Assembly: GCA_027623325.1 (NCBI GenBank)
Contig: JAQBXY010000002.1
Coordinates: 62,001-126,000, forward strand
DNA length: 64,000 bases
Source: Gemmatimonadota bacterium
Lineage (GTDB): Bacteria > Gemmatimonadota > Gemmatimonadetes > Longimicrobiales > Gaopeijiaceae
Reading direction: 5' to 3'
The translations under genes were made by a program, and so were the position numbers. Shown here one piece after another: positions 22,987 through 37,185 of this stretch (position 1 is the first letter of the stretch; the number at the start of each line of letters is the position of its first letter). Under the pieces are notes generated by a model. The model did not search any database, was not told the origin of the DNA, and worked only from the letters and a program-made list of their open reading frames with translations.

Positions 22987-24604
22987 GCGTCCACTCCCAA
23001 AGGTTCCAGAAGCTGCCGAAGTTGGTCCCGCTCCCGCGATAGTTCACCACGCGCTCACTGACGAGTTCGGGGATCACGTTGTAGTAGATCGGGAGCATGC
23101 GAGACTCTTCGGCCAGTCTGGCCTGGGCCTCGTCGAGCAGGGGCTTCCGCTCGTTGAAGCTGAGGGCCTGATCGGACGCGCGCAGGAGCTCGTCGAGGGC
23201 GGTCGAGCAGAAGCCCGTCATGTTGTTGGGCCCGTCACAGCGGTAGAGACCGGTGAAGCTCGGGTCGGCGGGGAGGAACCAGGCGCTGACGACGCCATCC
23301 CAGTTTCGGCTCCGCCACGTCTGGGTCCACGTGGCCGCCTCTAGAGTCTGGAACGCGACTTCGACACCCACGGATTTGAGCTGGGCCTGAATCACCTGCG
23401 CGACCGCGATCCGGTCGGTCGTGCCGGCTCGGTTCAGAAGTGTGAAGGAGAAGCGCTGACCGTCCTTCACGAGGACGCCATCAGGGCCTGGGCGCCAGCC
23501 GGCGGCTCCCAGCATTCGCACGGCCCGTTCGGGGTCGTAGGTCGAGGCCACGACGTCGGGGTTGTGATACGGACTCGTGGGGTTGATCGGTGTGTTCGCG
23601 ACTTGAACCGTCCCGCCCATGAGCTGCTCTGCGATCGCATCGCGGTCGATCGCGTGGAAGAGTGCCTCGCGGACCTCCTGATCGCGAAACAGGACCGTCG
23701 AGCGCTCGGAATTCAGACCCACGTCGAAGTGCAGGAAGGTATTCGAGCTGATCAGGTTGGCCTGGTACCCCTGCAGGCGCGTCGCCTCGGCGACCTGCGT
23801 GGGTTCGAGGCGCGTGTAGTGGTACTGGCCCGCCTTCATCGCATTCAGGCGCGTGTTCGAATCGGGGATGAACGACCAGACGACTTCGTCGATGGCAGGG
23901 AAGTCGGCGCCTCTCCAGTAGTCGTCGTTGCGGACCACTCGGATGTACTCCCCCGAACGCCACTCGGCGAACTTGAAGGGTCCGGTGCCCACGAGTTCGG
24001 TGCCCCGGTTGTACGGCGTGTAGTTCACGATCTCTTCGGTGGACATGCCACCCAGGACGTGTTCGGGCAGGATGGCCTCGAAGAGGCCCGCGTAGTAGCC
24101 GAACTCCGCCGACCAGCGGAAGACGACCGTGTGGTCGTCGGGCATGGAACAGTCGATGATGCCTTGATACCAGTCGCGGTTGTACGTCTGCGAGTTCTCG
24201 CTCGTCACGAAGCGCCAGGTGAAACACACGTCTTCGCTCGTGAACGCCTCGCCGTCGTGCCAGCGGACGTTCTCCTGGAGCGGCCACGTCATCGAAACCG
24301 TGCCGTCGGCATTGTGCTCGATCAGACCGTTCTCGGGTGTCGGTATCTGCTTGGCGAGTACCGGGATGTAGGTGTTGTGTTCGTCGGTCGTGATGAGGCC
24401 TTCGACCATGCTGAAGTGGACATCCACGAGCATCTGGCTCGTGAAGGCGTTGAGCACGTCGATCTCCCGATCGTATGCGACGCGCAGGATCGCTCTTCCG
24501 TCCGCGGACGCCAGCGGATCGCGGCGATCCCCGGTGCACGAGGCGAGCGTCAGAGCCAGCGCCACGGCGCACGAAAGGCGGCGTAGATGGGATGTTGGGG
24601 TCAC
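22979..24604 (-). CDS. Peptide-binding lipoprotein (SBP family 5)
   Basis: 541 residues from GTG 24604, which overlaps the stop of the upstream DUF885 gene as GTGA; the longer reading from 24697 only adds upstream coding sequence. A lipoprotein signal ends LALALTLASC. The sequence has the SBP_bac_5 pattern (VRWHDGEAFTSEDVCFTWRF, LVGTGPFKFAEWRSGEYIRV, REALFHAIDRDAIAEQLM, LYRCDGPNN). Likely delivers di/oligopeptides to the DppB/C pair nearby. Being in an operon with two DUF885 proteins suggests coupled peptide hydrolysis and uptake. Confidence 0.9.
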   Translation of the reverse strand: MTPTSHLRRLSCAVALALTLASCTGDRRDPLASADGRAILRVAYDREIDVLNAFTSQMLVDVHFSMVEGLITTDEHNTYIPVLAKQIPTPENGLIEHNADGTVSMTWPLQENVRWHDGEAFTSEDVCFTWRFVTSENSQTYNRDWYQGIIDCSMPDDHTVVFRWSAEFGYYAGLFEAILPEHVLGGMSTEEIVNYTPYNRGTELVGTGPFKFAEWRSGEYIRVVRNDDYWRGADFPAIDEVVWSFIPDSNTRLNAMKAGQYHYTRLEPTQVAEATRLQGYQANLISSNTFLHFDVGLNSERSTVLFRDQEVREALFHAIDRDAIAEQLMGGTVQVANTPINPTSPYHNPDVVASTYDPERAVRMLGAAGWRPGPDGVLVKDGQRFSFTLLNRAGTTDRIAVAQVIQAQLKSVGVEVAFQTLEAATWTQTWRSRNWDGVVSAWFLPADPSFTGLYRCDGPNNMTGFCSTALDELLRASDQALSFNERKPLLDEAQARLAEESRMLPIYYNVIPELVSERVVNYRGSGTNFGSFWNLWEWTLR

Positions 24605-25785
24605 GAGTCGAACATCTCCACGGTTCGGTTCGAATGCATGCGTCCATACAGATAGCGTACGAAGTCTGCGCGTCGCTCGGGGGTGACGCGCGCCCAATGG
24701 GGTGCGACGGCCGGTTCACCGCACCAGTAGGACCAAATGAGGGCGGCGCGACTGGGTGCTTCGATGAAGGCCATCCGGTTTTGGACCCAACCCTCTCCGC
24801 CCGTCAGCGCCTGGCCGCGTAGCCAATCGGTCGTCGCGTCGCGCGTCCAGTCGAGAGCGTGGCGCCTCCACGCCGCCCCGGTTCCGATCGCGGCGCGGTA
24901 CCGGGTCATGAGCGACTGGACCCGATCGTCGTCGGAAGTATCCCATCCGAGCACGGCGAGCCCGCTGTCGGCGATGCCTTCGAAGACCGACGAACTCGCC
25001 GTATTCACCACGGACAAAAGATTGTCGGCCGGTGCGGTGCCCTCTCGATACCACGCTTCGCGGAGCTTGAACTGGAGGTAGTGGCCAGGGTAACCCTCGT
25101 GAACCGCGAGATGCCGTAGGCCCGGGAGCGTGAGGGTAGGCTCGACGTTCAGCTCGACCTTACGAATCGAGTAGTTGCAGCGAGCGTTGAAGGGCACTCC
25201 GGTCACGGCCTCGACCGACATGCCGTCGGATCGGTCGGCCGGGATCTCGATGACATGCTCGTTGGTGAGATCCCACGCTTCCGCCATCAACTCACGACTG
25301 ACACCCTCGACCTCATCGGGCGGGACCCGATTCCGGTCTTCCCATGAGGCGCACTGGTGCGCGAGATCGCCGTTGTATCCCATGGGGCCCAGCAACGCGC
25401 GGAGCCCCGAGCGAAGTAGGTCCATCTCGCCGTCGCTGGCCGGGGCGACGGGCACATGGAGAAAGTCCCCCAGCTGCGACTCGAAATCGAGCCCGGTACT
25501 GCGCCAACGAATGAACGCCAGCGTCGAGTGCGCGAGCTGATCGTAATAGATGCGGCGATCGGGCTCACTCAATCCGGCCGCCTTCTCGCGCAGAGCCGTC
25601 CACCGCTCAGCTGCTTCGGTGTACGAAGGGAACGGCTCGGCAGAAAACTCATTCGAGACGTCCATGTTCAGCACGGCGAGGCCCGTGGCGTCGCCACTCT
25701 CCGCGCGGTACAGGGCGTCGACCCCGAGGATGGCGGTCATGACTTCTCGACCGTAGTCGAGTGTGCCCGCGCTGAGTTCGTTCAT
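24601..25785 (-). CDS. DUF885-family putative metallopeptidase with HExxPGH
   Basis: 394 residues starting at ATG 25785, which overlaps the TGA of the upstream gene (ATGA). A much longer frame runs to 26748 but that part lies over the coding sequence of the other DUF885 gene. The family zinc motif is present as AVHEGYPGHYLQFKLR. The second conserved block of the family (EGWALYxE) is reduced here to SSVFEGIADSGLAVLGW. No signal peptide is visible. Only part of the usual domain is covered, about two thirds of a typical DUF885 length. Confidence 0.82.
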   Translation of the reverse strand: MNELSAGTLDYGREVMTAILGVDALYRAESGDATGLAVLNMDVSNEFSAEPFPSYTEAAERWTALREKAAGLSEPDRRIYYDQLAHSTLAFIRWRSTGLDFESQLGDFLHVPVAPASDGEMDLLRSGLRALLGPMGYNGDLAHQCASWEDRNRVPPDEVEGVSRELMAEAWDLTNEHVIEIPADRSDGMSVEAVTGVPFNARCNYSIRKVELNVEPTLTLPGLRHLAVHEGYPGHYLQFKLREAWYREGTAPADNLLSVVNTASSSVFEGIADSGLAVLGWDTSDDDRVQSLMTRYRAAIGTGAAWRRHALDWTRDATTDWLRGQALTGGEGWVQNRMAFIEAPSRAALIWSYWCGEPAVAPHWARVTPERRADFVRYLYGRMHSNRTVEMFDS

Positions 25786-27506
25786 GCAGAGCCCGCCGGA
25801 TCCGTGAGGCGATCGTGCGCTCCGAGACCGAGGCCGAGGGCGGCGCGCCGCTTCATCTCGTCGGCAACGAGCCTCACGGGAATCGATCCGTACGACAGAA
25901 AGGCATCGTGAAAAGACCGCATCGTGAATCTCTCTCCGAGGGTCGCCATGAGGTCCCGCCTCAGGGCATGGATCTGGTCGGTTCCCATCAGATAGATCAA
26001 AGCGGCCCCTGGGAACATGCTGTTCTTGACCGCCTCTGCTTCGGCGGCGCCGCGACTCATACCGGCCCGATCGATGTAAAAGGCTGCTGCCTCCGTCAGG
26101 CTCATCCGCCGGTGGTGCAATTCTACGTCGACGATGGCCCGAGCACACATGCGAATCCTCGAATGATGCTCGGAAAAGCGCTCGCGAGGGGTCAGGCCCC
26201 CGGCCTCTGCCATGAGATCGGTCGCGTAGCAGGCCCAGCCTTCGGCCATGGTGGCCCCGCAATACATGGCGATGCGGGATGCACAGTCGACCGCCGCGAT
26301 TCTCCCGATGCGCGACGGCGATCGGAACGCATGCCAGTTCTGGACGTGGTGTCCGATCCCTCCGTGGTGGACGACGTGGTTCAGCTTGATCACGGAGTCG
26401 TTGTGCGTTCGAAGGAGCGCCGCCCGATCGGCTTCGGGGACGGACTCGTCGATCGGAGTCACCAAGTAGTCGTGCACCGGGGGGCCAGCGAACGCGGCGG
26501 GCGAGCGATAGAAGAGGAAATACAGGTCGGGGGCGGCAGCGCGCGACCACGCTGGCCGAGGCACGTACCGCAGGGGGAAGTCGGGCCAGGTGAGCAGGTC
26601 GCGCTCCAGGGCGACGGCGCGCATCTCGCTCCAGATGTCCCCGTAGCGCGTGTAGTATCCGTCCAGGTCGGACCCGACGTCGGCCAGCTCGGCGACGACG
26701 TCTTCCGGTCGCTCGGACCCGAAGTCCGGAGCCGCGTCGATGCACCACGATTCGACCGCCGCCATCTCCTCCCGGGCATATTCGGCGATCTCGTCTGCGG
26801 ATTGGGTGAGGAAGTGTCCATCGCGGAGGTAGAGATCGAAGGTGTCCGGCCCGCAGGCGACGTCCTCGCGGGGCCGGTCCAGGAGAGTGCCTTCGAGGAA
26901 GTCGTGGAAGTCGGACAGTGAGGTCGCCGCTCGGTCTGCCTCCTGCTTCAGCGCCGACCCCCTACCCGCGGCTGAGTCGAGATGGGTGACGCCCTCCCGC
27001 AGAAAGGCCAGACCCCCGCGACACTCGCGCAGGGCTCGACGGGTCCAGCTCTCGGGGGCAGTGACGAGATGTGCCTGCGCCTGGCCAAGAAAGTCTGGTA
27101 GGGCTCCCATCCGGGCTCGCATGGCATCGAGGCGCTCGGCCTCGGGGGCAAAGTCGGACAAGACGAGCGACATCAGCCCGAACACGGCCTCACCTACGTG
27201 ATGGCTCGGGTTTTCCAGGAAATGTCCCGATTCGTACTCGCGAAGCTGGATTCGCAGGAATCCCTCGGCGAGGCGGCGATCGATATCCGCGAGCGGACGT
27301 TGCGCGTCGTCGGCCGCGTCATCTTCGGCGAGCAGGGTCCGCATCTCAGAGATAGTCGCGCTGACGCCCCCCGCGCTCAGGTCGGGGAGTTGGTGATCGT
27401 GGGCGTGGACACCGATGAACGTGGCGTTCACCGGGCGGCGTTCGTGGTACGAGCGAAGGAAACGGTCGAGCCACGGCTCTGGGCCGATCTTTGGGCGGTC
27501 GGGCAT
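25782..27506 (-). CDS. DUF885-family protein with degenerate zinc motif
   Basis: 574 residues from ATG 27506 (ATG 27551 or 27656 are also in frame; none has a strong ribosome site). The DUF885 fold is recognisable, but the HExxPGH zinc site reads HHGGIGHH (…VVHHGGIGHHVQNWHAF), so the catalytic glutamate is replaced by histidine. The downstream family block MAEGWACYATDLMAEAG is intact. Together with the next gene, which keeps HEGYPGH but has lost most of the EGWA block, the pair looks complementary. Whether it is active is open. It is the first gene of the operon running to the binding protein. Confidence 0.8.
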   Translation of the reverse strand: MPDRPKIGPEPWLDRFLRSYHERRPVNATFIGVHAHDHQLPDLSAGGVSATISEMRTLLAEDDAADDAQRPLADIDRRLAEGFLRIQLREYESGHFLENPSHHVGEAVFGLMSLVLSDFAPEAERLDAMRARMGALPDFLGQAQAHLVTAPESWTRRALRECRGGLAFLREGVTHLDSAAGRGSALKQEADRAATSLSDFHDFLEGTLLDRPREDVACGPDTFDLYLRDGHFLTQSADEIAEYAREEMAAVESWCIDAAPDFGSERPEDVVAELADVGSDLDGYYTRYGDIWSEMRAVALERDLLTWPDFPLRYVPRPAWSRAAAPDLYFLFYRSPAAFAGPPVHDYLVTPIDESVPEADRAALLRTHNDSVIKLNHVVHHGGIGHHVQNWHAFRSPSRIGRIAAVDCASRIAMYCGATMAEGWACYATDLMAEAGGLTPRERFSEHHSRIRMCARAIVDVELHHRRMSLTEAAAFYIDRAGMSRGAAEAEAVKNSMFPGAALIYLMGTDQIHALRRDLMATLGERFTMRSFHDAFLSYGSIPVRLVADEMKRRAALGLGLGAHDRLTDPAGSA

Positions 27507-27688
27507 CGTCGGAAAATGGTGCAACCACACGGCTTCGCCAGGTGCGGACATACTGGCCCGCGGCAGAGGCACCCCGTATTCTGTAGAGTGCCCCGAGCGC
27601 AATTCGGCTTCTCTCAGCCTTTTGAGGGGAGTGCGTGTCGTTACATTGTATCCCACGGTCCCAACTCAGCGCGTGACGCGAGGCTGGA

Positions 27689-30136
27689 ATGAACGCTTCT
27701 GCATCTGCAATGCTCCTCACCGGGCTTCTTCTTCTCGGCTTGGCAGGGGATGTGGGGATCGATTCCACCCCCTTGGTGGCTCCGGTCGCTCCCACGGAAT
27801 GGGTCGAGACCGCCGCGGCGGACCCCAACGAGGTCATCGAAGAGTTCTGCACGCGTTGTCATAGCGAACAAAGGCAGCGCGGGGGCCTGGTGCTGGAGGG
27901 CTTCGACGTGGGTGCCGCCGCCGACCACGCGGATATCTCGGAGCGGATGATCAAGAAGCTTCGTGCGGGCATGATGCCGCCCTCCGGCGCGCGTCGACCT
28001 GATGCCGAAGCGCTCGAAGAGTTGGTGTCCCAGCTCGAAAGCACCATCGACGCCGCGTGGAAGAAGAATCCCGAGCCCGGAACGCGAGTCTTTCAGAGAC
28101 TCAACCAGGCGGAGTATGCGGCGGCGGTCGAGCACCTTCTGGGAATCCGGGTGGATGTGACGAGCTTCCTCCCGCTCGATACCAAGAGTGCCAACTTTGA
28201 TAACATCGCCGACGTCCAGATGCCGTCGACCACGGTGGTCGAGGGGTATCTGCGGGCGGCGGGCCAGATCAGCCGGGTCGCCCTAGGTGACCCCGAGGCC
28301 GAAGTGGCGAACACGATCTACCGGATGCCGCGCGTATCCTCGCAGAGGGAGAAGGTCGACGGTGCGCCGTTCGGCACGAGGGGTGGCTTGTCGGTCGTCC
28401 ACAACTTCCCCGCGGACGGCAAGTACGTCTTCCACATCATGCCGTACAACGCGGTCGAGGGTGAGGTCTTCGGGCGCACGTACGGGGGCGATCAGATCGA
28501 GGTCTCCATCGACGGTGAGCGCATCGCGCTGATGTCGATCGACCGGTGGATGCACGAGTCCGAGCCGTCCGGGTTGAACATGCGGACCGATTCGATCCAG
28601 GTGTCGGCGGGCCCACACAGGGTCACCGCAGCCTTCGTTCGTCAATTCGAGGGGGACGTGGACGACCTGATTCGTCCGATCGATCACACCCTCGCCGATG
28701 GTCAGATCGGTATCGGATATGGTGTCACGACTCAGCAGCACTTGCAGCGTCTGACCGTACTGGGGCCGTTCGAGGTGACAGGCGTCTCCGACACGCCCAC
28801 GCGCAGCTTCGTCTTCAGTTGCCGTCCGACCTCGCCGGGTGAAGAGCGACCCTGCGCGGAGAGCATCGTGCGGAGGCTTGCTCAGCGTGCCTACCGCCGT
28901 GACGCGACCCCGAGTGATGTAGCGGGCCTCATGCAGTTCTACGACCAGGGCTCGGAGAGCCGTGGCTTCGAGGGCGGTGTGCGGTTGGCGCTCCAGGCGA
29001 TCCTCGCGAGCCCTCACTTCATTTTCCGGATGGAGGAGACGCCGCGAGACGTTCGGCCGGGGGAGATCTACGACATTCGCGACGCCGACTTGGCCTCGCG
29101 GCTCTCCTTCTTCCTCTGGGGCACTCCACCGGACGACGAGCTCGTTCGTCTCGCCGATGCGGGTCGTCTTGCGAATGACGATGAAGTCGAACGGCAGGTT
29201 CGGAGAATGCTCGCGGATCCGCGGAGCGAAGCACTGGCGACCCGATTTGCGGCGCAGTGGCTCCGGTTACAGGACCTCGACAAGATTCGGCCCGATGCGC
29301 TGAGTTACCCCTACTACGATCAGACGCTCGCCGACGCGATGCACCGTGAGACCGAGCTGCTCTTCGATCACATTCGCAGCGCGGACCGGCCCATCACGGA
29401 ATTGCTGACGGCGGACTACACGTACGTGAACGAGCGGCTCGCTCGCCATTACCAGATTCCCGGCGTGATCGGCACGGATTTCCGGCAGGTTCAGTACCCG
29501 GACGCGAGCCGCCGTGGCCTGTTGGGGCACGGGAGTATCCTCACCCTCACCTCGCACGCGAGCCGTACGTCTCCCGTGTTGAGAGGGAAGTGGGTCATGG
29601 AAGTGCTCTTGGGCTCTCCGCCGCCCCCGCCGCCCCCGAACGTGCCGGATTTGGAAGAGACGGAAGGCGCGGACGACGGTCGATTCCTGACGGTCCGTGA
29701 GCGCATGGAGCAACATCGCGCGAATCCCGCGTGCAGTTCGTGCCACAACGTGATCGACCCGATCGGACTTTCGTTCGAGAACTTCGATGTCACGGGCGCC
29801 TGGCGTGCGCGCGACGGCGGCAACCTCGTCGATGCGGCCGGGGAATTGTACGATGGGACCGTGATCGACGGGGTCGCCGACCTTCGCGCCGCCATTCTGC
29901 AGCGTCCTGAAGTGTTCTACCGCATCTTTACCGAAAACATGATGGCGTACGCGCTGGGCCGACGAGTCGAGTATTTCGACATGCCGTCCATCCGAGGGAT
30001 CACGCGTGACGCTGCCGAGCAGGATCATCAGCTGTCCGCTTATGTGCTGGGCATCGTGAACGCGCCTGCGTTCCGGAGCAGCCGGGCGGAGGCAGCCGTG
30101 GTCACCCAGCCGGTGACCGATCAGGGCAACAACTAG
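27689..30136 (+). CDS. DUF1592-family di-haem cytochrome c protein
   Basis: 815 residues with an N-terminal signal peptide (AMLLTGLLLLGLAGDVG). Two haem c motifs: CTRCHSE near residue 53 and CSSCHNV near residue 682, the latter inside the DUF1588 block (NVIDPIGLSFENFDVTGAWR). In between are the DUF1587 (RLNQAEYAAAVEHLLG), carbohydrate-binding-like, DUF1595, DUF1592 (LASRLSFFLWGTPPDDEL) and C-terminal DUF1585 regions. This architecture is common in Planctomycetota, Acidobacteriota and Gemmatimonadota and its activity is unknown. The partner DUF1552 gene follows 41 bases later. Confidence 0.92.
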   Translation: MNASASAMLLTGLLLLGLAGDVGIDSTPLVAPVAPTEWVETAAADPNEVIEEFCTRCHSEQRQRGGLVLEGFDVGAAADHADISERMIKKLRAGMMPPSGARRPDAEALEELVSQLESTIDAAWKKNPEPGTRVFQRLNQAEYAAAVEHLLGIRVDVTSFLPLDTKSANFDNIADVQMPSTTVVEGYLRAAGQISRVALGDPEAEVANTIYRMPRVSSQREKVDGAPFGTRGGLSVVHNFPADGKYVFHIMPYNAVEGEVFGRTYGGDQIEVSIDGERIALMSIDRWMHESEPSGLNMRTDSIQVSAGPHRVTAAFVRQFEGDVDDLIRPIDHTLADGQIGIGYGVTTQQHLQRLTVLGPFEVTGVSDTPTRSFVFSCRPTSPGEERPCAESIVRRLAQRAYRRDATPSDVAGLMQFYDQGSESRGFEGGVRLALQAILASPHFIFRMEETPRDVRPGEIYDIRDADLASRLSFFLWGTPPDDELVRLADAGRLANDDEVERQVRRMLADPRSEALATRFAAQWLRLQDLDKIRPDALSYPYYDQTLADAMHRETELLFDHIRSADRPITELLTADYTYVNERLARHYQIPGVIGTDFRQVQYPDASRRGLLGHGSILTLTSHASRTSPVLRGKWVMEVLLGSPPPPPPPNVPDLEETEGADDGRFLTVRERMEQHRANPACSSCHNVIDPIGLSFENFDVTGAWRARDGGNLVDAAGELYDGTVIDGVADLRAAILQRPEVFYRIFTENMMAYALGRRVEYFDMPSIRGITRDAAEQDHQLSAYVLGIVNAPAFRSSRAEAAVVTQPVTDQGNN

Positions 30137-30177
30137 ACAAGCCGACGAAACACCAACCTCGAGCGAGGATCATTACG

Positions 30178-31566
30178 ATGGATTTCATCACCGGAAAGCA
30201 CATTTCACGCCGCGCGATGCTCAAGGGCATGGGTGCAGGCGTCGGCCTGCCGCTTCTGGACGCGATGGTCCCTGCAGCCCGGCCCGCGCATGCCACGGAA
30301 GCCGGCCGGGCCGCGGACAGCACGCGCCTCGTTTGTATCGAGAACGTTCACGGCAGTGCCGGTTCCAATGACCTCGGCGCTTCGCTTGGGCTCTGGTCTC
30401 CCAAGGAGACGGGCAAGGACTTCGATCTGTCGCTGAGCAGCATGAACCCTCTGGATCCGTACCGGAAGTATCTGACGATCGTCAGTGACACGGATTCCAG
30501 GATGGCCGACGCGTTCTCGCCGGCCGAGATCGGAGGTGACCATTTCAGAACGACGGCGGTCTTCCTCACCCAGTCGCATCCCAAGCAGACACAGGGTTCT
30601 GACGTCTCTGCCGGTACGTCGTTCGACCAGGTCTACGCCCAGTCGATCGCGGGGCAGACGCCCATTCCCTCCATTCAGCTGACCATCGAGAACGTCGATC
30701 AGGCGGGTGGATGTGCCTACGGCTACTCCTGCGTCTATACCGATACCATCAGTTGGGCGTCGCCCACTCAGCCGCTCCCCATGATCCGTGATCCGCGGGC
30801 CGTGTTCGAGCAGCTCTTCGGAGCGGGCGGCACGCCGACGCAGCGGGCCGAACGACTCGCCACCGATCGGAGCATCCTCGACTGGGTCATGGGCGAGATG
30901 TCCGGGCTGCGGCGTGACCTCGGACCCGCCGACCAGCACCGACTCGATCTGTACACCACCAACATCCGTGAGCTCGAGACCCGCATTCAGCGCATCGAGG
31001 CCCAGAACGCGAGTGGTGACGAGCGAGAAATTCCGGAAGCGCCGGTTGGGGTTCCGGACGATTTCGCAGAGCACATGAGGCTCATGTTCGATCTGCAGGT
31101 GCTCGCCTTCATGTCCGATACGACTCGCGTCTTCTCGCTCAAGCTGGGTCGAGATGCGTCCCCGCGCGTCTATCCCGAGAGTGGCTCGAGCAGCCCCTTC
31201 CATGCCGCGTCGCACCATGGCGGCCGCGAAGAGAGAGTGCGGGAGTTCGCGAAGATCAACACGTACCACGTGTCCATGATCCCCTACTTCCTCGACCGGC
31301 TCGCGGCGGTTACGGAGGGTGACGGGACACTGCTCGACAAGACGATGGTGATGTACGGGTCGGCAATGGCTGATTCGAACCTGCACAACCACATCCGTTG
31401 CCCACTCTTCGTGGTGGGTGGTGCGAACGGCAAGTTGGCGGGTGAGAATCACATTCGCGCGACTCCGGGCACCCCGATGGCCAACGTGATGCTGTCACTG
31501 CTTCACAAGCTTGGCGTCGAGGACCGGGAAAGCTTCGGCAACAGCAACGGGACCTTCGCGATCTAG
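30178..31566 (+). CDS. DUF1552 protein, Tat-exported
   Basis: 462 residues. The N-terminus HISRRAMLKGMGAGVG is a twin-arginine signal with a following hydrophobic stretch, so the folded protein is exported. The rest matches DUF1552: ending in MVMYGSAMADSNLHNHIRCPLFVVGGANGKLAGENHIR and VMLSLLHKLGVEDRESFGNSNG, with FHAASHHGG upstream. The histidine-rich pieces resemble alkaline-phosphatase-superfamily metal sites, as in the related DUF1501 family; that is inference. It is always reported next to DUF1592 cytochrome genes in this kind of genome, so they likely form one system. Confidence 0.92.
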   Translation: MDFITGKHISRRAMLKGMGAGVGLPLLDAMVPAARPAHATEAGRAADSTRLVCIENVHGSAGSNDLGASLGLWSPKETGKDFDLSLSSMNPLDPYRKYLTIVSDTDSRMADAFSPAEIGGDHFRTTAVFLTQSHPKQTQGSDVSAGTSFDQVYAQSIAGQTPIPSIQLTIENVDQAGGCAYGYSCVYTDTISWASPTQPLPMIRDPRAVFEQLFGAGGTPTQRAERLATDRSILDWVMGEMSGLRRDLGPADQHRLDLYTTNIRELETRIQRIEAQNASGDEREIPEAPVGVPDDFAEHMRLMFDLQVLAFMSDTTRVFSLKLGRDASPRVYPESGSSSPFHAASHHGGREERVREFAKINTYHVSMIPYFLDRLAAVTEGDGTLLDKTMVMYGSAMADSNLHNHIRCPLFVVGGANGKLAGENHIRATPGTPMANVMLSLLHKLGVEDRESFGNSNGTFAI

Positions 31567-31609
31567 AGCAACGACATTGTCGGGGGTCGACGCCTCCGGG
31601 GAACTCGAA

Positions 31610-33502
31610 ATGATGGCTACGAACAGGATCACACGGTTACGGCTCGGATCGATCTTCGCGCTGAGCATTATGCTGGCCGGCGCGACGCCTGCCGAATCAC
31701 CCGTTGCAGACGCCGCGCAGGCCGGCGACGTCGCACAGGTTCGCGCGCTATTGCAGCAGGGTGCCGACGCCAACGCGGCGCAGGCCGACGGTCTAACGGC
31801 GCTGCACTGGGCTGCGATGAGCAACAACCGGCAGATCGTTGACCTGCTGCTGTATGCCGGAGCGACTGTGCGGCCGCTGACGCGGGTCGGTGGGTATACG
31901 CCGCTTCACCTGGCGGCGCGGGCCGGTCACGAGGACGTCGTCGGCGCTCTGCTGGCCGGGGGTGCCAACGCGAATGCCTTCACGACGACCGGGGTCACCG
32001 CCATGCACTTCGCCGCTCAGGCCAACGCGGCTGGTGTGATTCGAGCTCTTTCGGCGCACGGCGGCGACGTCGATGCTCCCGACGCGTTCCAGAGCCGGAC
32101 TCCTCTCATTTTTGCGGCTTCCCGTAACGCGAGCAGTGCGGTCGCCGCGCTGCTCGACGCGGGAGCCGACCCTTCGATCGTGACGGATCTGAAGGACTAC
32201 ACACAGCGGAAGAAGTTCGACGACGACGAGCGTGCCCGACGAGCCCGCGTGCGTGCGGCAGAGGCCGGCACGCCGGCTGGCGGAGGGCGTGGGGGTCCAG
32301 GTGGAGCTCCCGGTGCACAGGCAGCAGCGGGTGGGCAGGGTGCGACCCCCCCCGACCGCGCGACACCGCCTGATCCGGACGATCCACCTCCGCCCCCTGG
32401 GGCGGCAGCGCCGGAACAGCCGGCGACGCCTCCCGCGGATGAGCCCGTCATCCGGGCGTTGTCCGGAGAGGAGCAAATCGGAGTTCAGGGTGGCTTCTCA
32501 GCACTCCACTACGCGGCTCGTGAGGGCCACATCGAGACAGCGGTACTTCTTCTCGATCGGGGCGCTGATATCGACCAGGTATCGGGCGGTGATCAGTCCA
32601 GCCCGTTGCTCGTGTCGATCATCAACGGCAACTACGATCTCGCGAAGATTCTGATCGAGCGCGGGGCTGACGCCAACCTCGTCAGCGACGATGGCGCGGG
32701 GCCGCTCTTCGCAACGTTGAACATCGAGTGGTCGCTGCGCACCTGGTATCCGCAGCCCCAGATGTTTCGTAGCCAGGCGACGTCGTATCTCGACCTCATG
32801 GAGCTGTTGCTCGTCGCCGGTGCCGACCCGAACCAGCGGACGAGCACGCACATCTGGTACGCGGCCTACAACGCCGGCCGCATGGGGGTCGACTTCACGG
32901 GAGCGACCCCGTTCTGGCGGGCGGCTTATGCGACCGATGTCGCGGCGATGCGCCTGTTGGTCGATCACGGAGCGGATCCGAACATCTGGACCATGAAGCT
33001 ACCAGATCGGCGTCGTGGCTTCGTCGATCCGAATTTCCTGCCGGTACAGCCGGACAACGAGGATGATGAGGAAGAGAAAGATCCGTCCGGACTGCCGCCG
33101 GTGCCGGTCGGCGGACCGGGGATTCATCCGATCCACGCGGCATCGGGAGTCGGCTTCGGAACGTCTCGGGTGGCCCAGCAGCATCGGAGCGTGCCCGACG
33201 GGTGGCTTCCGGCCATGAAGTACTTCGTGGAAGAGCTCGGGGTGGATCCGAATCTTCGAGACATGGACGGCTTCTCGCCTGTCCACCATTCGGCGGCACG
33301 GGGCGACAATGCGACGATCCTGTACCTGGTCGAGCAGGGCGCCGACGTGACCACGATCAGTCGACGGGGCCACACGACGGCGGACATGGCGAACAGTCCC
33401 GAACAGCGAGCCCAGCCGCATCCGGCGACCATCGCGCTCCTCGAGAAGCTCGGCTCGAAGAACAACCACAACTGCCAGTCGTGCGGGACGGGCGGCAACT
33501 AA
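31610..33502 (+). CDS. Exported ankyrin-repeat protein with Gly/Pro/Ala and acidic linkers
   Basis: 630 residues from ATG 31610; the frame open from 31511 overlaps the preceding gene. A signal peptide (LGSIFALSIMLAGATPAES) precedes four to five ankyrin repeats (DAAQAGDVAQVRALLQQGAD, TPLHLAARAGHEDVVGALLAGG, TAMHFAAQANAAGVIRALSAHG, TPLIFAASRNASSAVAALLDAG), a low-complexity Gly/Pro/Ala linker at about 200-290, more repeats, an acidic linker (QPDNEDDEEEKDPSG) and a last repeat. The C-terminus ends in a CxxC (NCQSCGTGG) with no haem histidine. It follows DUF1552 by 43 bases and probably belongs to the same unit, as a binding partner outside the cytoplasm. Confidence 0.88.
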   Translation: MMATNRITRLRLGSIFALSIMLAGATPAESPVADAAQAGDVAQVRALLQQGADANAAQADGLTALHWAAMSNNRQIVDLLLYAGATVRPLTRVGGYTPLHLAARAGHEDVVGALLAGGANANAFTTTGVTAMHFAAQANAAGVIRALSAHGGDVDAPDAFQSRTPLIFAASRNASSAVAALLDAGADPSIVTDLKDYTQRKKFDDDERARRARVRAAEAGTPAGGGRGGPGGAPGAQAAAGGQGATPPDRATPPDPDDPPPPPGAAAPEQPATPPADEPVIRALSGEEQIGVQGGFSALHYAAREGHIETAVLLLDRGADIDQVSGGDQSSPLLVSIINGNYDLAKILIERGADANLVSDDGAGPLFATLNIEWSLRTWYPQPQMFRSQATSYLDLMELLLVAGADPNQRTSTHIWYAAYNAGRMGVDFTGATPFWRAAYATDVAAMRLLVDHGADPNIWTMKLPDRRRGFVDPNFLPVQPDNEDDEEEKDPSGLPPVPVGGPGIHPIHAASGVGFGTSRVAQQHRSVPDGWLPAMKYFVEELGVDPNLRDMDGFSPVHHSAARGDNATILYLVEQGADVTTISRRGHTTADMANSPEQRAQPHPATIALLEKLGSKNNHNCQSCGTGGN

Positions 33503-33542
33503 GAATCGCGAAAAACGCGCATAGCGTTGACGGAGTGAAGTA

Positions 33543-34070
33543 ATGAAGCGCGTTGTTTTCGCAGGATTTCTGGCCGTTGGACTCGTCGTGCCCTCCGGGG
33601 CCACGGCGCAGGACACGGACATCAATCGGTATACGCTCGAAGACTTGGGCGGCGTCTTTGTGAGGATCGAGGTCGGGGACGCATGTCAGGGCTCCGGAAT
33701 CACGTCTGCGGCGTATGAGGCCAACGTGTCGCTCCAGCTCATCGAGGCCGAGGTCGGCGTGCTGACTCGATCCGAGATGCTGACACACCCTGCTATGCCG
33801 GAGCTTCGCATCTCGCTCGATTGTGCGGGCGGGGCCAACGGATCCGCGGGTGCGATGGCGTATTCGGTCGGCCTCCGGGTTCAGCAGGCGGCCCAGATGC
33901 TCCGGGATACCCAGATTACCCTGCCGGAAGCGGTAACCTGGTACGCACTGAAAGTCGGCGTGACTTCCCCGGGGGAGGCGGCCGAAGACGTGGGAGCTAC
34001 ACTCACGGAGCAGGTCGCGCTGTTCGCAGCGGCGTGGGCCTCGGCCCATGAGGGCGGCGAGGGGCGGTAG
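33543..34070 (+). CDS. Exported orphan protein
   Basis: 175 residues. Signal peptide MKRVVFAGFLAVGLVVPSGA then ATAQDTD. The mature part contains two cysteines (DACQGSG and SLDCAGGANG), helix-rich C-terminal half (VGLRVQQAAQMLRDTQITL, EQVALFAAAWASAHEGGE) and a short beta start (LEDLGGVFVRIEVGD). I do not recognise a family. It sits between the ankyrin gene (41 bases) and DUF1028 (70 bases), in the same orientation, so it could be part of the cluster. Confidence 0.6.
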   Translation: MKRVVFAGFLAVGLVVPSGATAQDTDINRYTLEDLGGVFVRIEVGDACQGSGITSAAYEANVSLQLIEAEVGVLTRSEMLTHPAMPELRISLDCAGGANGSAGAMAYSVGLRVQQAAQMLRDTQITLPEAVTWYALKVGVTSPGEAAEDVGATLTEQVALFAAAWASAHEGGEGR

Positions 34071-34139
34071 AGCTACCCCCGCCTTGCCCCGCGAAGGTGC
34101 GAGGCGGCATCCTTGGGGCCCCGTACACAAGGAGTCGTC

Positions 34140-34985
34140 ATGCGTCGTCCGATCCTCGCCCCGTTTCGGGGGCTTTTATGCATTCTGGTCGCCTCAGTGC
34201 TGCTTCCTTCGACCGTCTCGGCGACCTGGTCGGTTATCGCCGTCGATGCACGGACGGGCCGAGTCGTCGTCGCTTCCGCGACCTGTGTCGCCCAGTCGCG
34301 CCTGATCAGCTTTCCGGCCAAGGGACTCATGGATGTGCAGGCCATCGTGGTCCCGGGCGTAGGCGTCGCTGCGGCCCAAGCGGGCGTCGATCGCACGCGG
34401 AGTAACCAGACGCTCATCTACGAACAGTTGAGGGAAGGCACGGACCCGCGCCTCATTCTCGACATGCTGCGCGCCGATCCGAGCATTGAGAGTCGGCAGT
34501 TCGGCATCGTCGACCTCCAGGGCCGATCGATCGGCTTCTCCGGAAGCGGCAACAGCGCGGCTTCGCTGTCGGTTCAGGGTCGGGTTGCGGGCACGGACAT
34601 CTACTTCTCGGTGCAGGGCAACATCCTCGCCTCCGATGCGGTCGTGACCAAGGCCGCAGCGGCGCTTCGGACGGCCCAGGGTGACGTGATCGACAAGGTC
34701 ATGGCCGCCATGGAGGCGGCAGATGAAGCGGGAGGCGATCGGCGTTGCACCTGTGAAACCGAGCCCGTGCCAGACGCCGCGTGCGACGGTCGCAATGCCC
34801 ACGTCGCCTACATTCTCGCGGCCGACCGTGACGATCCGGTCGGAGAGACGTTCAACGACGGCGACTACTACATGTTCATCGATGTCACCGACGAGAACAT
34901 CGAGTCGCACGAGAACGGCAATCCCGTGATCACGCTTCGTATGCGCTACGACCAGTGGCGGGCCCAGGGAGGGGCCCCACAATGA
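34140..34985 (+). CDS. DUF1028 protein (Ntn-hydrolase-like), exported
   Basis: 281 residues from ATG 34140, preceded by AAGGAG; the longer frame from 34113 is not needed. A signal peptide ends near STVSA, leaving ATWSVIAVDARTGRVVVASATCV, which is the conserved DUF1028 start. The segment PAKGLMDVQAIVVPGVGVAAAQAGVDRTRSNQ and QFGIVDLQGRSIGFSGSGNS are the family's other blocks. C-terminal residues include a CTCETEPVPDAAC cysteine cluster. DUF1028 is thought to be an Ntn-hydrolase-like fold of unknown substrate. Its TGA overlaps the ATG of the next gene. Confidence 0.86.
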   Translation: MRRPILAPFRGLLCILVASVLLPSTVSATWSVIAVDARTGRVVVASATCVAQSRLISFPAKGLMDVQAIVVPGVGVAAAQAGVDRTRSNQTLIYEQLREGTDPRLILDMLRADPSIESRQFGIVDLQGRSIGFSGSGNSAASLSVQGRVAGTDIYFSVQGNILASDAVVTKAAAALRTAQGDVIDKVMAAMEAADEAGGDRRCTCETEPVPDAACDGRNAHVAYILAADRDDPVGETFNDGDYYMFIDVTDENIESHENGNPVITLRMRYDQWRAQGGAPQ

Positions 34986-35956
34986 CGTTCAGCCCTACCC
35001 GTTTCCTCGTTGGCCTTGCGATCGTGTTGGTCGGCTGCGGTCCGGCTGAATCCGAGACCGCTTCGGCGGAGGAGGTATCGATCCCCGCAGATCAACGGAT
35101 TCGCACGGCGGATCCGTATGCTCGGGGTTATACGGACGAAGACTTCCCTCGTATTCAGGAGCTCGCTCCGGGGGTGTACTCCTATGAGCAGCTGCGCTCG
35201 GCAGGCGAGGAGAAGTTCACCACGGTGAGCCTGTTCGTCGTCACGGGTGAAGGAGTCATCGTCGCGGACGGCCAGGGGAGCGTGGAGGAGACGGCGCGAA
35301 TGATCGAGCGCATCGGCGGGATCACCGACGAGCCGATCCGCACTGTCGTGGTGGCGTCCGATCACGGCGATCACACGGCGGGCAACTCGGCCTTCTCGGC
35401 AGATGTCGCGTTTCTTGCCCACCCGACCTCCGCGCGCGCCCTCGAGTCGATGGCGGGTGTCCCGAAGGCCACCGAGCTCGTCCCGGACCGAAAGGTCATC
35501 CAGATGGGCGACAAGGAGGTCCATGTGCTTTTCCTCGGGCGGGCGCACACGGGGGGTGACCTCGTCGTCTACCTTCCGCAGGAGAAGGTGATGTTCATGA
35601 GTGAGGCCTACCTCCATCGTGTCTTTCCCGCGATGAGGAGTGCGTTTCCGTCGGAGTGGGTCCAGATGATCGAGACCGCGCAGGCCATGGACGTCGACGT
35701 TTTCGTGCCGGGGCACGGTTTCGTGGATCATCCTTCGATACTGGCCGAGGAACTCGAGGTCTATCAGGGCGCGATCCGGGTCGTGATCCTGGAGGCGCGA
35801 CGCCTCTACGAAGACGGCTTCGGGCTGGAAGAGGCCCAGCAGATGGCGCTGTTCGGGGATCTCGACAGCTGGTCTCTACGCTCGAGCCAGGGGGATCGCG
35901 CCATCCAGCAGGTCTACGCAGAGATCGACGGTGAACTCCCTCCGGTGACTCGATGA
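34982..35956 (+). CDS. Metallo-beta-lactamase-fold lipoprotein with altered zinc motif
   Basis: 324 residues from ATG 34982 in an ATGA overlap with DUF1028. Lipoprotein signal (LVGLAIVLVGCGPAE). The MBL first motif HxHxDH appears as VVASDHGDHTAG, so the first histidine is replaced by serine, while later ligands (H in GRAHTGGD, H in VFVPGHGF) are kept. Loss of one ligand is known in some MBL subgroups but the effect here is unknown. The domain ends near residue 230, followed by a helical tail (EELEVYQGAIRVVILEARRLYEDGFGL). Its stop overlaps the next gene by four bases. Confidence 0.85.
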   Translation: MTFSPTRFLVGLAIVLVGCGPAESETASAEEVSIPADQRIRTADPYARGYTDEDFPRIQELAPGVYSYEQLRSAGEEKFTTVSLFVVTGEGVIVADGQGSVEETARMIERIGGITDEPIRTVVVASDHGDHTAGNSAFSADVAFLAHPTSARALESMAGVPKATELVPDRKVIQMGDKEVHVLFLGRAHTGGDLVVYLPQEKVMFMSEAYLHRVFPAMRSAFPSEWVQMIETAQAMDVDVFVPGHGFVDHPSILAEELEVYQGAIRVVILEARRLYEDGFGLEEAQQMALFGDLDSWSLRSSQGDRAIQQVYAEIDGELPPVTR

Positions 35957-37185
35957 CCCAATTGTTCAGCTCCATCATCCCCGCCGCCCGCGGGCGAGCC
36001 GGCAACGATCCCATCTTCGCGCTGAACGCGGAGGCTCGGCGCCGCGCCGATGCAGGTGAGTCGATTCTGAATGCGACCCTGGGCGCGCTCATGACCGATG
36101 AGGGTGGCCTCTGCACGATGCCCACCGTCATGGAGACGATGGCGCGGTTCCAAGACGGCCGTGCGGCAGGTTATGCTCCGATCTCGGGTGTGCCGGCCTA
36201 CCGACAGGCCGTGATTCGCGAGCTCTTCGGTGAAGGGCCGCTGGCCGCACAGGCCGTCGCGGTCGCGACACCCGGGGGAACTGGGGCGATCTTTCAATCC
36301 GTAGTGAACTTCCTCGAGCCGGGTCAGAAGATGCTGACGCCGAGCTTCTATTGGGGTCCGTACACCGAGATCTCGCGCCACACCCGTCGCGAGGTCGAGA
36401 CCTTCCCGATGTTTCGGGCTGACGGTTCGTTCGATATCGAGGGCATGAGTGCCGGGCTCGATCGACATCTCGCCACACAGGGCAGGGCGCTCCTGGTCCT
36501 CAACTTCCCGTGCCACAATCCGACCGGTTACACGTTGAGTGCGGATGAGTGGCGTCGCGTGGCGGAGGCGGTGGGTGAGGCGGGACAGCGTGGACCCGTG
36601 ACAGTCCTCATCGATGCGGCCTATATGGCATTCGGGGGAGCCTCGGCCACGTCATGGGTCGGTGCTGTTCCCAGTCTGCTGGAGCACGCGACGGTTCTCG
36701 TCGCCTGGACGGCATCCAAGAGCTTCGCCCAATACGGCGCGCGGGTCGGAGCGTTGATCGGCCTCCACCGCGATCCATTGGAGTTGGAGCAGATGGGCAA
36801 CGCGCTGGGGTATTCCTGTCGGGCCACTTGGTCGAATTGTAATCACCTCGGACAGCTGGCGGTGACCGAACTACTGACCGATGCCGATTTGATAAAACGG
36901 GCGAGTGCCGAGCGCGCTCAACTCGCGTCCTTGCTTCAGGAGCGAGTCGACGCGTTCAATCATCATGCTTCCGCAGCGGGTCTCTCCACGCCGCGATATG
37001 ACGCGGGATTCTTCGTCGCCGTATTCACCAAGGACGCTCAGGCTTCCGCCAAGGCGATGCGCGACCTGGGCGTGTACATCACGCCGATCCCCGGTGCGGC
37101 TCGTGTGGCCGTCTGTTCGACCCCGGCGTCAGCAATGCCGAGACTGGTCGACGCGCTGAAAGCGGGTGTGGCCGCGGCGAGCTAG
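35953..37185 (+). CDS. PLP-dependent class I/II aminotransferase (aromatic-type)
   Basis: 410 residues. PLP-lysine in TASKSFAQYGARVG, the conserved NFPCHNPTG and DAAYMAFG motifs, and the C-terminal carboxylate-binding arginine in PIPGAARVAVC mark a fold-type I enzyme like aspartate or aromatic aminotransferase. It acts in the cytoplasm, probably on aspartate, aromatic or related amino acids, consistent with peptide degradation. It starts in an ATGA overlap with the MBL gene and ends four bases into the convergent lipoprotein gene. Confidence 0.93.
   Translation: MTQLFSSIIPAARGRAGNDPIFALNAEARRRADAGESILNATLGALMTDEGGLCTMPTVMETMARFQDGRAAGYAPISGVPAYRQAVIRELFGEGPLAAQAVAVATPGGTGAIFQSVVNFLEPGQKMLTPSFYWGPYTEISRHTRREVETFPMFRADGSFDIEGMSAGLDRHLATQGRALLVLNFPCHNPTGYTLSADEWRRVAEAVGEAGQRGPVTVLIDAAYMAFGGASATSWVGAVPSLLEHATVLVAWTASKSFAQYGARVGALIGLHRDPLELEQMGNALGYSCRATWSNCNHLGQLAVTELLTDADLIKRASAERAQLASLLQERVDAFNHHASAAGLSTPRYDAGFFVAVFTKDAQASAKAMRDLGVYITPIPGAARVAVCSTPASAMPRLVDALKAGVAAAS

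Follow-up and report, generated by a model that had tools for sequence, protein, structure and literature searches.

The window analyzed here, a 64,000-nt stretch of Gemmatimonadota DNA, carries four consecutive genes, encoding a DUF1592-type protein, a DUF1552 protein, an ankyrin-repeat protein, and a small orphan. Pairs of DUF1592 and DUF1552 genes are already known and unexplained. The locus therefore raises the question of whether the ankyrin and orphan genes belong to the same system and, if so, what an exported ankyrin protein may do there. We found that the ankyrin gene, unlike the orphan, is a constant partner of the pair; this partnership, its single origin, and the CxSC tail of the ankyrin protein are the new part.

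Organization of the locus

The preliminary description of the window had placed the four genes in this order with a spacing of about 40 bases, an arrangement that we confirmed at positions 27689-34070, where all four lie on one strand with intergenic gaps of 41, 43, and 40 bases (Table 1). The ankyrin gene has an ATG at 31610, and the list of open reading frames (ORFs) gives an earlier start, a TTG at 31511. The same-strand run probably continues beyond the orphan into the DUF1028, metallo-beta-lactamase-fold, and aminotransferase genes, the first of which starts 42 bases past the orphan and is followed by the two others with overlapping ends. On the opposite strand, the DUF885 gene is overlapped by a second minus-strand frame (24601-26748), whose only match, to DUF885, is weak.

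Table 1. Genes at and around the DUF1592-DUF1552-ankyrin locus (positions in the window)
Feature	Position	Strand	Remarks
DUF885 gene	25782-27656	-	Divergent, upstream of the DUF1592 gene
DUF1592-type exported protein, predicted di-haem	27689-30136	+	815 aa; Pfam matches and two CxxCH motifs
DUF1552 (PF07586, HXXSHH) protein, Tat-type signal	30178-31566	+	462 aa; predicted alkaline-phosphatase-superfamily-like fold
Ankyrin-repeat protein, exported, C-terminal CxSC tail	31610-33502	+	630 aa
Small exported orphan	33543-34070	+	175 aa; fourth gene in one orthologous module only
DUF1028 protein	34113-34985	+	Possible operon extension; common to the closest relatives (~10 loci)
Metallo-beta-lactamase-fold protein	34955-35956	+	Possible operon extension
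Class I/II aminotransferase	35953-37185	+	Possible operon extension

Features of the three main proteins

The DUF1592-type protein comprises, in order, a PSCyt1-like N-terminus, PSD3, a CBM35/CBM6-like beta-sandwich, PSD5, PSD4, PSCyt3, and PSD2; the PSD3, PSD5, PSD4, PSCyt3, and PSD2 matches all exceed the Pfam cut-offs, with PSCyt1 barely doing so. Its two CxxCH motifs, at residues 54 (PSCyt1-like part) and 682 (PSCyt3 part), occur at equivalent positions in all 44 relatives listed, one of which has a third, and we infer from the sequence that the protein is a di-haem c-type cytochrome. In the AF2 model (pLDDT 86), the central beta-sandwich resembles CBM35/CBM6 with a probability of 1.00, a likeness that is weak by E-value (best E = 2.8e-3), and comparison of the model with known structures returned no full-length fold match. 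Pfam, PDB sequence, and fold searches gave no match of this protein to di-haem cytochrome c peroxidase or MauG, and a PDB sequence search with the DUF1592 and DUF1552 profiles yielded no convincing relative.

The DUF1552 protein matches PF07586 with E = 2.4e-85 (287 bits against a cut-off of 30). It carries a twin-arginine signal (SRRAMLKG), whose R11 and R12 are kept in 98-100% of 175 sequences, and a HAASHH version of the HxxSHH motif (H342, S345, H346, and H347); the conserved histidine set consists of H122, H342, H346, H347, H403, and H425. Its AlphaFold model (pLDDT 76) has 49 PDB fold matches at E <= 1e-3 (range 3e-5 to 1e-3), those listed being sulfatases, LtaS, EptC, YejM, phosphonate hydrolase, and alkaline phosphatases. 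These matches suggest an alkaline-phosphatase-superfamily-like fold and bear on the fold rather than on the reaction. The likeness is one of the fold of the model, at ~10% identity and with TM values of at most 0.42 (query) and 0.53 (target). The conserved residues of DUF1552 are the histidines, whereas the sulfatase CxPSR cysteine was not seen on inspection of the sequence; by this inspection only, GDHFRxx occupies a site at which CxPSR might be expected.

The N-terminus of the ankyrin protein is hydrophobic, and its tail reads NCQSCGTGGN. The protein had been described as ending in CxxC, which holds for the presence of the motif in the tail but not for its exact place, as five residues follow it here; in many ankyrin relatives CxxC does form the very C-terminus. 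Both cysteines of the tail, C622 and C625, recur without exception in the 26 relatives that were aligned, inside an LGxxNNxxCxSC ending, and endings of the LGARLMHKCLSCG type are seen in other ankyrin proteins belonging to the same clade. The CxSC tail is a feature of a nested clade (SH-aLRT 100, 60 rows), some members of which have lost it, so the tail is not essential to every module. As a possible partner of the CxSC tail, we considered the Cx5C loop of DUF1552 (C179 and C185) and rejected it, as it also occurs in planctomycete DUF1552 proteins without an ankyrin partner. Two apparent ankyrin-orphan fusions (L019 and L074) proved to be artefacts of ORF picking.

Co-occurrence and linkage in Gemmatimonadota

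An ankyrin protein had been proposed to be regularly present beside the DUF1592-DUF1552 pair, to be checked by a survey across genomes. We ran this survey in 101 Gemmatimonadota genomes, scoring the ankyrin by the C-terminal part of the window protein, and the proposal was borne out: DUF1552 was found in 40 genomes and the ankyrin, adjoining it, in the identical 40 and no others, with 179 copies of each and a copy-number correlation of r = 0.975 across carriers. DUF1592 (PF07631) was present in 41 genomes (180 copies), namely the same 40 and G015, whose candidacy as a DUF1592-only genome was rejected because its DUF1592 gene runs off the contig. An apparently unlinked ankyrin gene on contig C53 of G000 runs to the contig end and is most likely the remainder of the module on C59.

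Among the matches listed, the ankyrin lay downstream on the same strand for 133 of 151 DUF1552 genes (median of 1.8 kb between matches), and most of the exceptions that were fetched were also trios or contig ends, being divergent, contig-broken, or outside the matches listed. An independent locus scan of a collection with one genome per species placed the ankyrin next to the DUF1552 relative in 71 of 73 loci, the other two being one cut by a contig end (L076) and one from a planctomycete (L079). The surveyed Gemmatimonadota genomes contain up to 12 modules each. The genome of the window has six DUF1552 genes in five modules; its tandem (L080:5830-15647) has the order DUF1592-DUF1552-DUF1592-DUF1552-ankyrin and is followed by a complete trio that runs into L081. 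At L183:3640-11001, a DUF1592 gene lies ~4 kb from the next DUF1552 gene, as opposed to the usual tight spacing.

The orphan did not hold up as a regular member. Its family, which has no match in Pfam or NCBIfam, is conserved and exported, and it is represented by a single orthologous copy in each of 16 of the 101 genomes, adjoining one particular ankyrin gene. It is thus a lineage-specific fourth gene, outside the general system.

Phyletic range and co-divergence of the trio

Beyond Gemmatimonadota, the ankyrin gene was present in 19 of 20 regions from four Acidobacteriota genomes, with the remaining region being a contig end, and in 12 of 20 regions from other Acidobacteriota, where it was placed downstream, upstream, or divergently; the link between ankyrin and DUF1552 therefore outlasts changes in gene order. 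Within an array of trios in this phylum (L115:7656-12510), an ankyrin gene comes straight after a DUF1592 gene, no DUF1552 gene intervening, which hints at the haem protein as the main partner of the ankyrin. In the Pseudomonadota sample, only 6 of 299 genomes had DUF1552, and ankyrin was found in 2 of 5 inspected. Contigs L055, L036, L037, and L076, labelled as Candidatus Kuenenia, BD2-11 clade (Pseudomonadota), Gammaproteobacteria, and Euryarchaeota, carry Gemmatimonadota-like modules and are likely mislabelled or mixed metagenome-assembled genomes.

The planctomycete regions that we fetched (36 regions, 12 genomes) resemble the window in that DUF1592 stands beside DUF1552 in nearly all of them, but none (0/36) contains a linked ankyrin gene. 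The planctomycete PSCyt3/PSD (DUF1592-type) proteins, whose domain set is identical to that of the protein studied here, adjoin a family of genes without a known role in Rhodopirellula; the paper covering Verrucomicrobia (PMC5615132) makes no mention of ankyrin in its text.

A quick tree, built from 115 DUF1552 sequences after dereplication, placed every ankyrin-linked protein within one 71-row clade (SH-aLRT 99), and none of the 44 outside it was ankyrin-linked; the several long branches of the tree are all outside this clade. Two unlinked proteins inside the clade correspond to a contig end and to the second unit of the tandem. The association therefore most simply arose once and was then kept. 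Pairwise distances of DUF1592, DUF1552, and ankyrin across 91 complete trios were correlated at 0.93-0.95, and the DUF1552-ankyrin value was reached in 0 of 1,000 permutations. As shared ancestry of whole modules suffices for such correlations, they speak for co-inheritance and not for contact.

The trio is thus co-inherited almost invariably in two bacterial phyla, and in the ankyrin-linked clade it is an obligate genetic unit: its genes co-occur and are linked, their copy numbers nearly match, the proteins co-diverge, and the ankyrin association is restricted to one clade. The earlier idea of a three-part exported system accordingly stands in its genetic sense for this clade, but it does not extend to the wider DUF1592-DUF1552 family, in which the planctomycete pairs lack ankyrin.

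Possible roles of the ankyrin protein

Co-inheritance alone would allow a scaffold, chaperone, regulator, or inhibitor. Another account is that the four genes are merely co-transcribed and that the ankyrin protein works on something else. Short gaps on a single strand would by themselves permit this, and a lineage-limited pattern of that kind is indeed seen for the orphan and for the genes downstream of it. For the ankyrin, however, our surveys largely refute it: the presence in exactly the same 40 genomes out of 101, the single clade, the persistence of the link through changes in gene order, and the near-equal copy numbers in genomes with up to 12 modules leave it extremely improbable. The same strict, near one-to-one pairing with co-duplication would also suit an enzyme and its inhibitor, such that DUF1552 or DUF1592 would be a harmful periplasmic enzyme restrained by the ankyrin protein in the manner of an immunity protein. 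Against this stand the ordinary export signals on all parts, the lack of any conserved toxin or secretion gene near the trios, and the existence of ankyrin-less DUF1592-DUF1552 pairs; in a PADLOC search for defense systems, moreover, the ankyrin matches were confined to the repeats, with none for the other genes. We consider an inhibitor very unlikely.

A maturation factor that passes haem, metal, or, by way of its CxSC tail, reduced thiols to DUF1592 or DUF1552 and stays outside the working complex deserves more weight, although it too is unlikely. General cytochrome c maturation normally covers all CxxCH proteins without dedicated helpers, which counts against it, as does the loss of the CxSC tail from part of the clade. 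In its favor are the invariance of this tail where it occurs, the DUF1592-ankyrin pair at L115, and the precedent of Cj1386, an ankyrin-containing protein involved in haem trafficking to catalase, as cited in PMC4518328. In both Cj1386/KatA and AnkB/KatB, as in the trio, the ankyrin protein is encoded beside a haem protein, but the partner there is a catalase rather than a protein with two CxxCH motifs, and no catalase was among the recognized recurrent neighbors of the trios. The trio ankyrin also differs in its size of 630 aa, its CxSC tail, and its third partner.

Our preferred reading, which we put forward tentatively as falling a little short of probable, is that DUF1592 and DUF1552 make up an exported, possibly glycan-binding redox module together with the ankyrin protein, which would be their obligate scaffold or assembly partner. 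The L115 pair and the Cj1386 precedent speak for this reading as well, whereas the trios that lack the CxSC tail, the ankyrin-less planctomycete pairs, and the weak E-value of the CBM-like match count against it. The di-haem DUF1592 protein would use its CBM-like domain to dock on a carbohydrate-like substrate and would carry electrons. DUF1552, exported by Tat in folded form, would supply a histidine-rich site on an alkaline-phosphatase-like fold for a second chemical step. The ankyrin solenoid would bind DUF1592 and/or DUF1552 in the periplasm, and its flexible CxSC tail may act by thiol or metal chemistry on a partner, most likely the haem protein. A carbohydrate link, with which the CBM-like domain agrees, has been suggested for PSCyt proteins in Verrucomicrobia (PMC5615132). 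The redox or hydrolase role proposed in the preliminary description would be compatible with the two CxxCH motifs and the predicted fold, and the ankyrin protein may be a scaffold or regulator, as suggested there. That the trio amounts to a new periplasmic complex, in which a CxSC-tailed ankyrin assembles and redox-services a CBM-bearing di-haem cytochrome and a Tat-exported DUF1552 protein of alkaline-phosphatase fold for oxidative attack on a glycan-like substrate, seems quite unlikely to us.

An analogous pairing of an exported cytochrome with a partner is that of DUF1549/DUF1553 with DUF1501 in Planctomycetes, the families of which differ from DUF1592 and DUF1552. DUF1549/DUF1553 proteins are covered in PMC2754498. 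The literature searched, which leaves most subscription journals uncovered, contained no joint report of DUF1592 with DUF1552 or with ankyrin, nor any of the ankyrin third partner, its single origin, or its CxSC tail; DUF1552 by itself occurs in two papers. Both DUF1592 and DUF1552 are often met with in environmental bacteria: one planctomycete has 23 copies of DUF1552, and the Gemmatimonadota genomes of the survey have as many as 12. The obligate ankyrin partner of single origin, with its CxSC tail, turns them into a defined three-protein unit with specific residues to change, and the ankyrin-less planctomycete pairs offer a natural control for its role.

Other recurrent neighbors

Across the loci compared, we found no conservation of the neighborhood beyond the trio, and other recurrent neighbors are limited to a few loci. 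The order DUF1028, metallo-beta-lactamase-fold gene, and aminotransferase is repeated in L007, L008, L011, L012, L050, L059, and L068. NHL-repeat beta-propeller genes stand beside divergent, tail-less trios (L094:11191-12141, L097:5044-6249, L102:7650-8669, and L095:17411-18526), in L094 between DUF1552 and ankyrin. Seven loci (L078:4435-5745, L016, L017, L020, L023, L027, and L095) contain a separate exported cytochrome-like gene, whose sole Pfam match, to a cytochrome, is below threshold and whose HMHLRGK stretch is reminiscent of copper monooxygenases.
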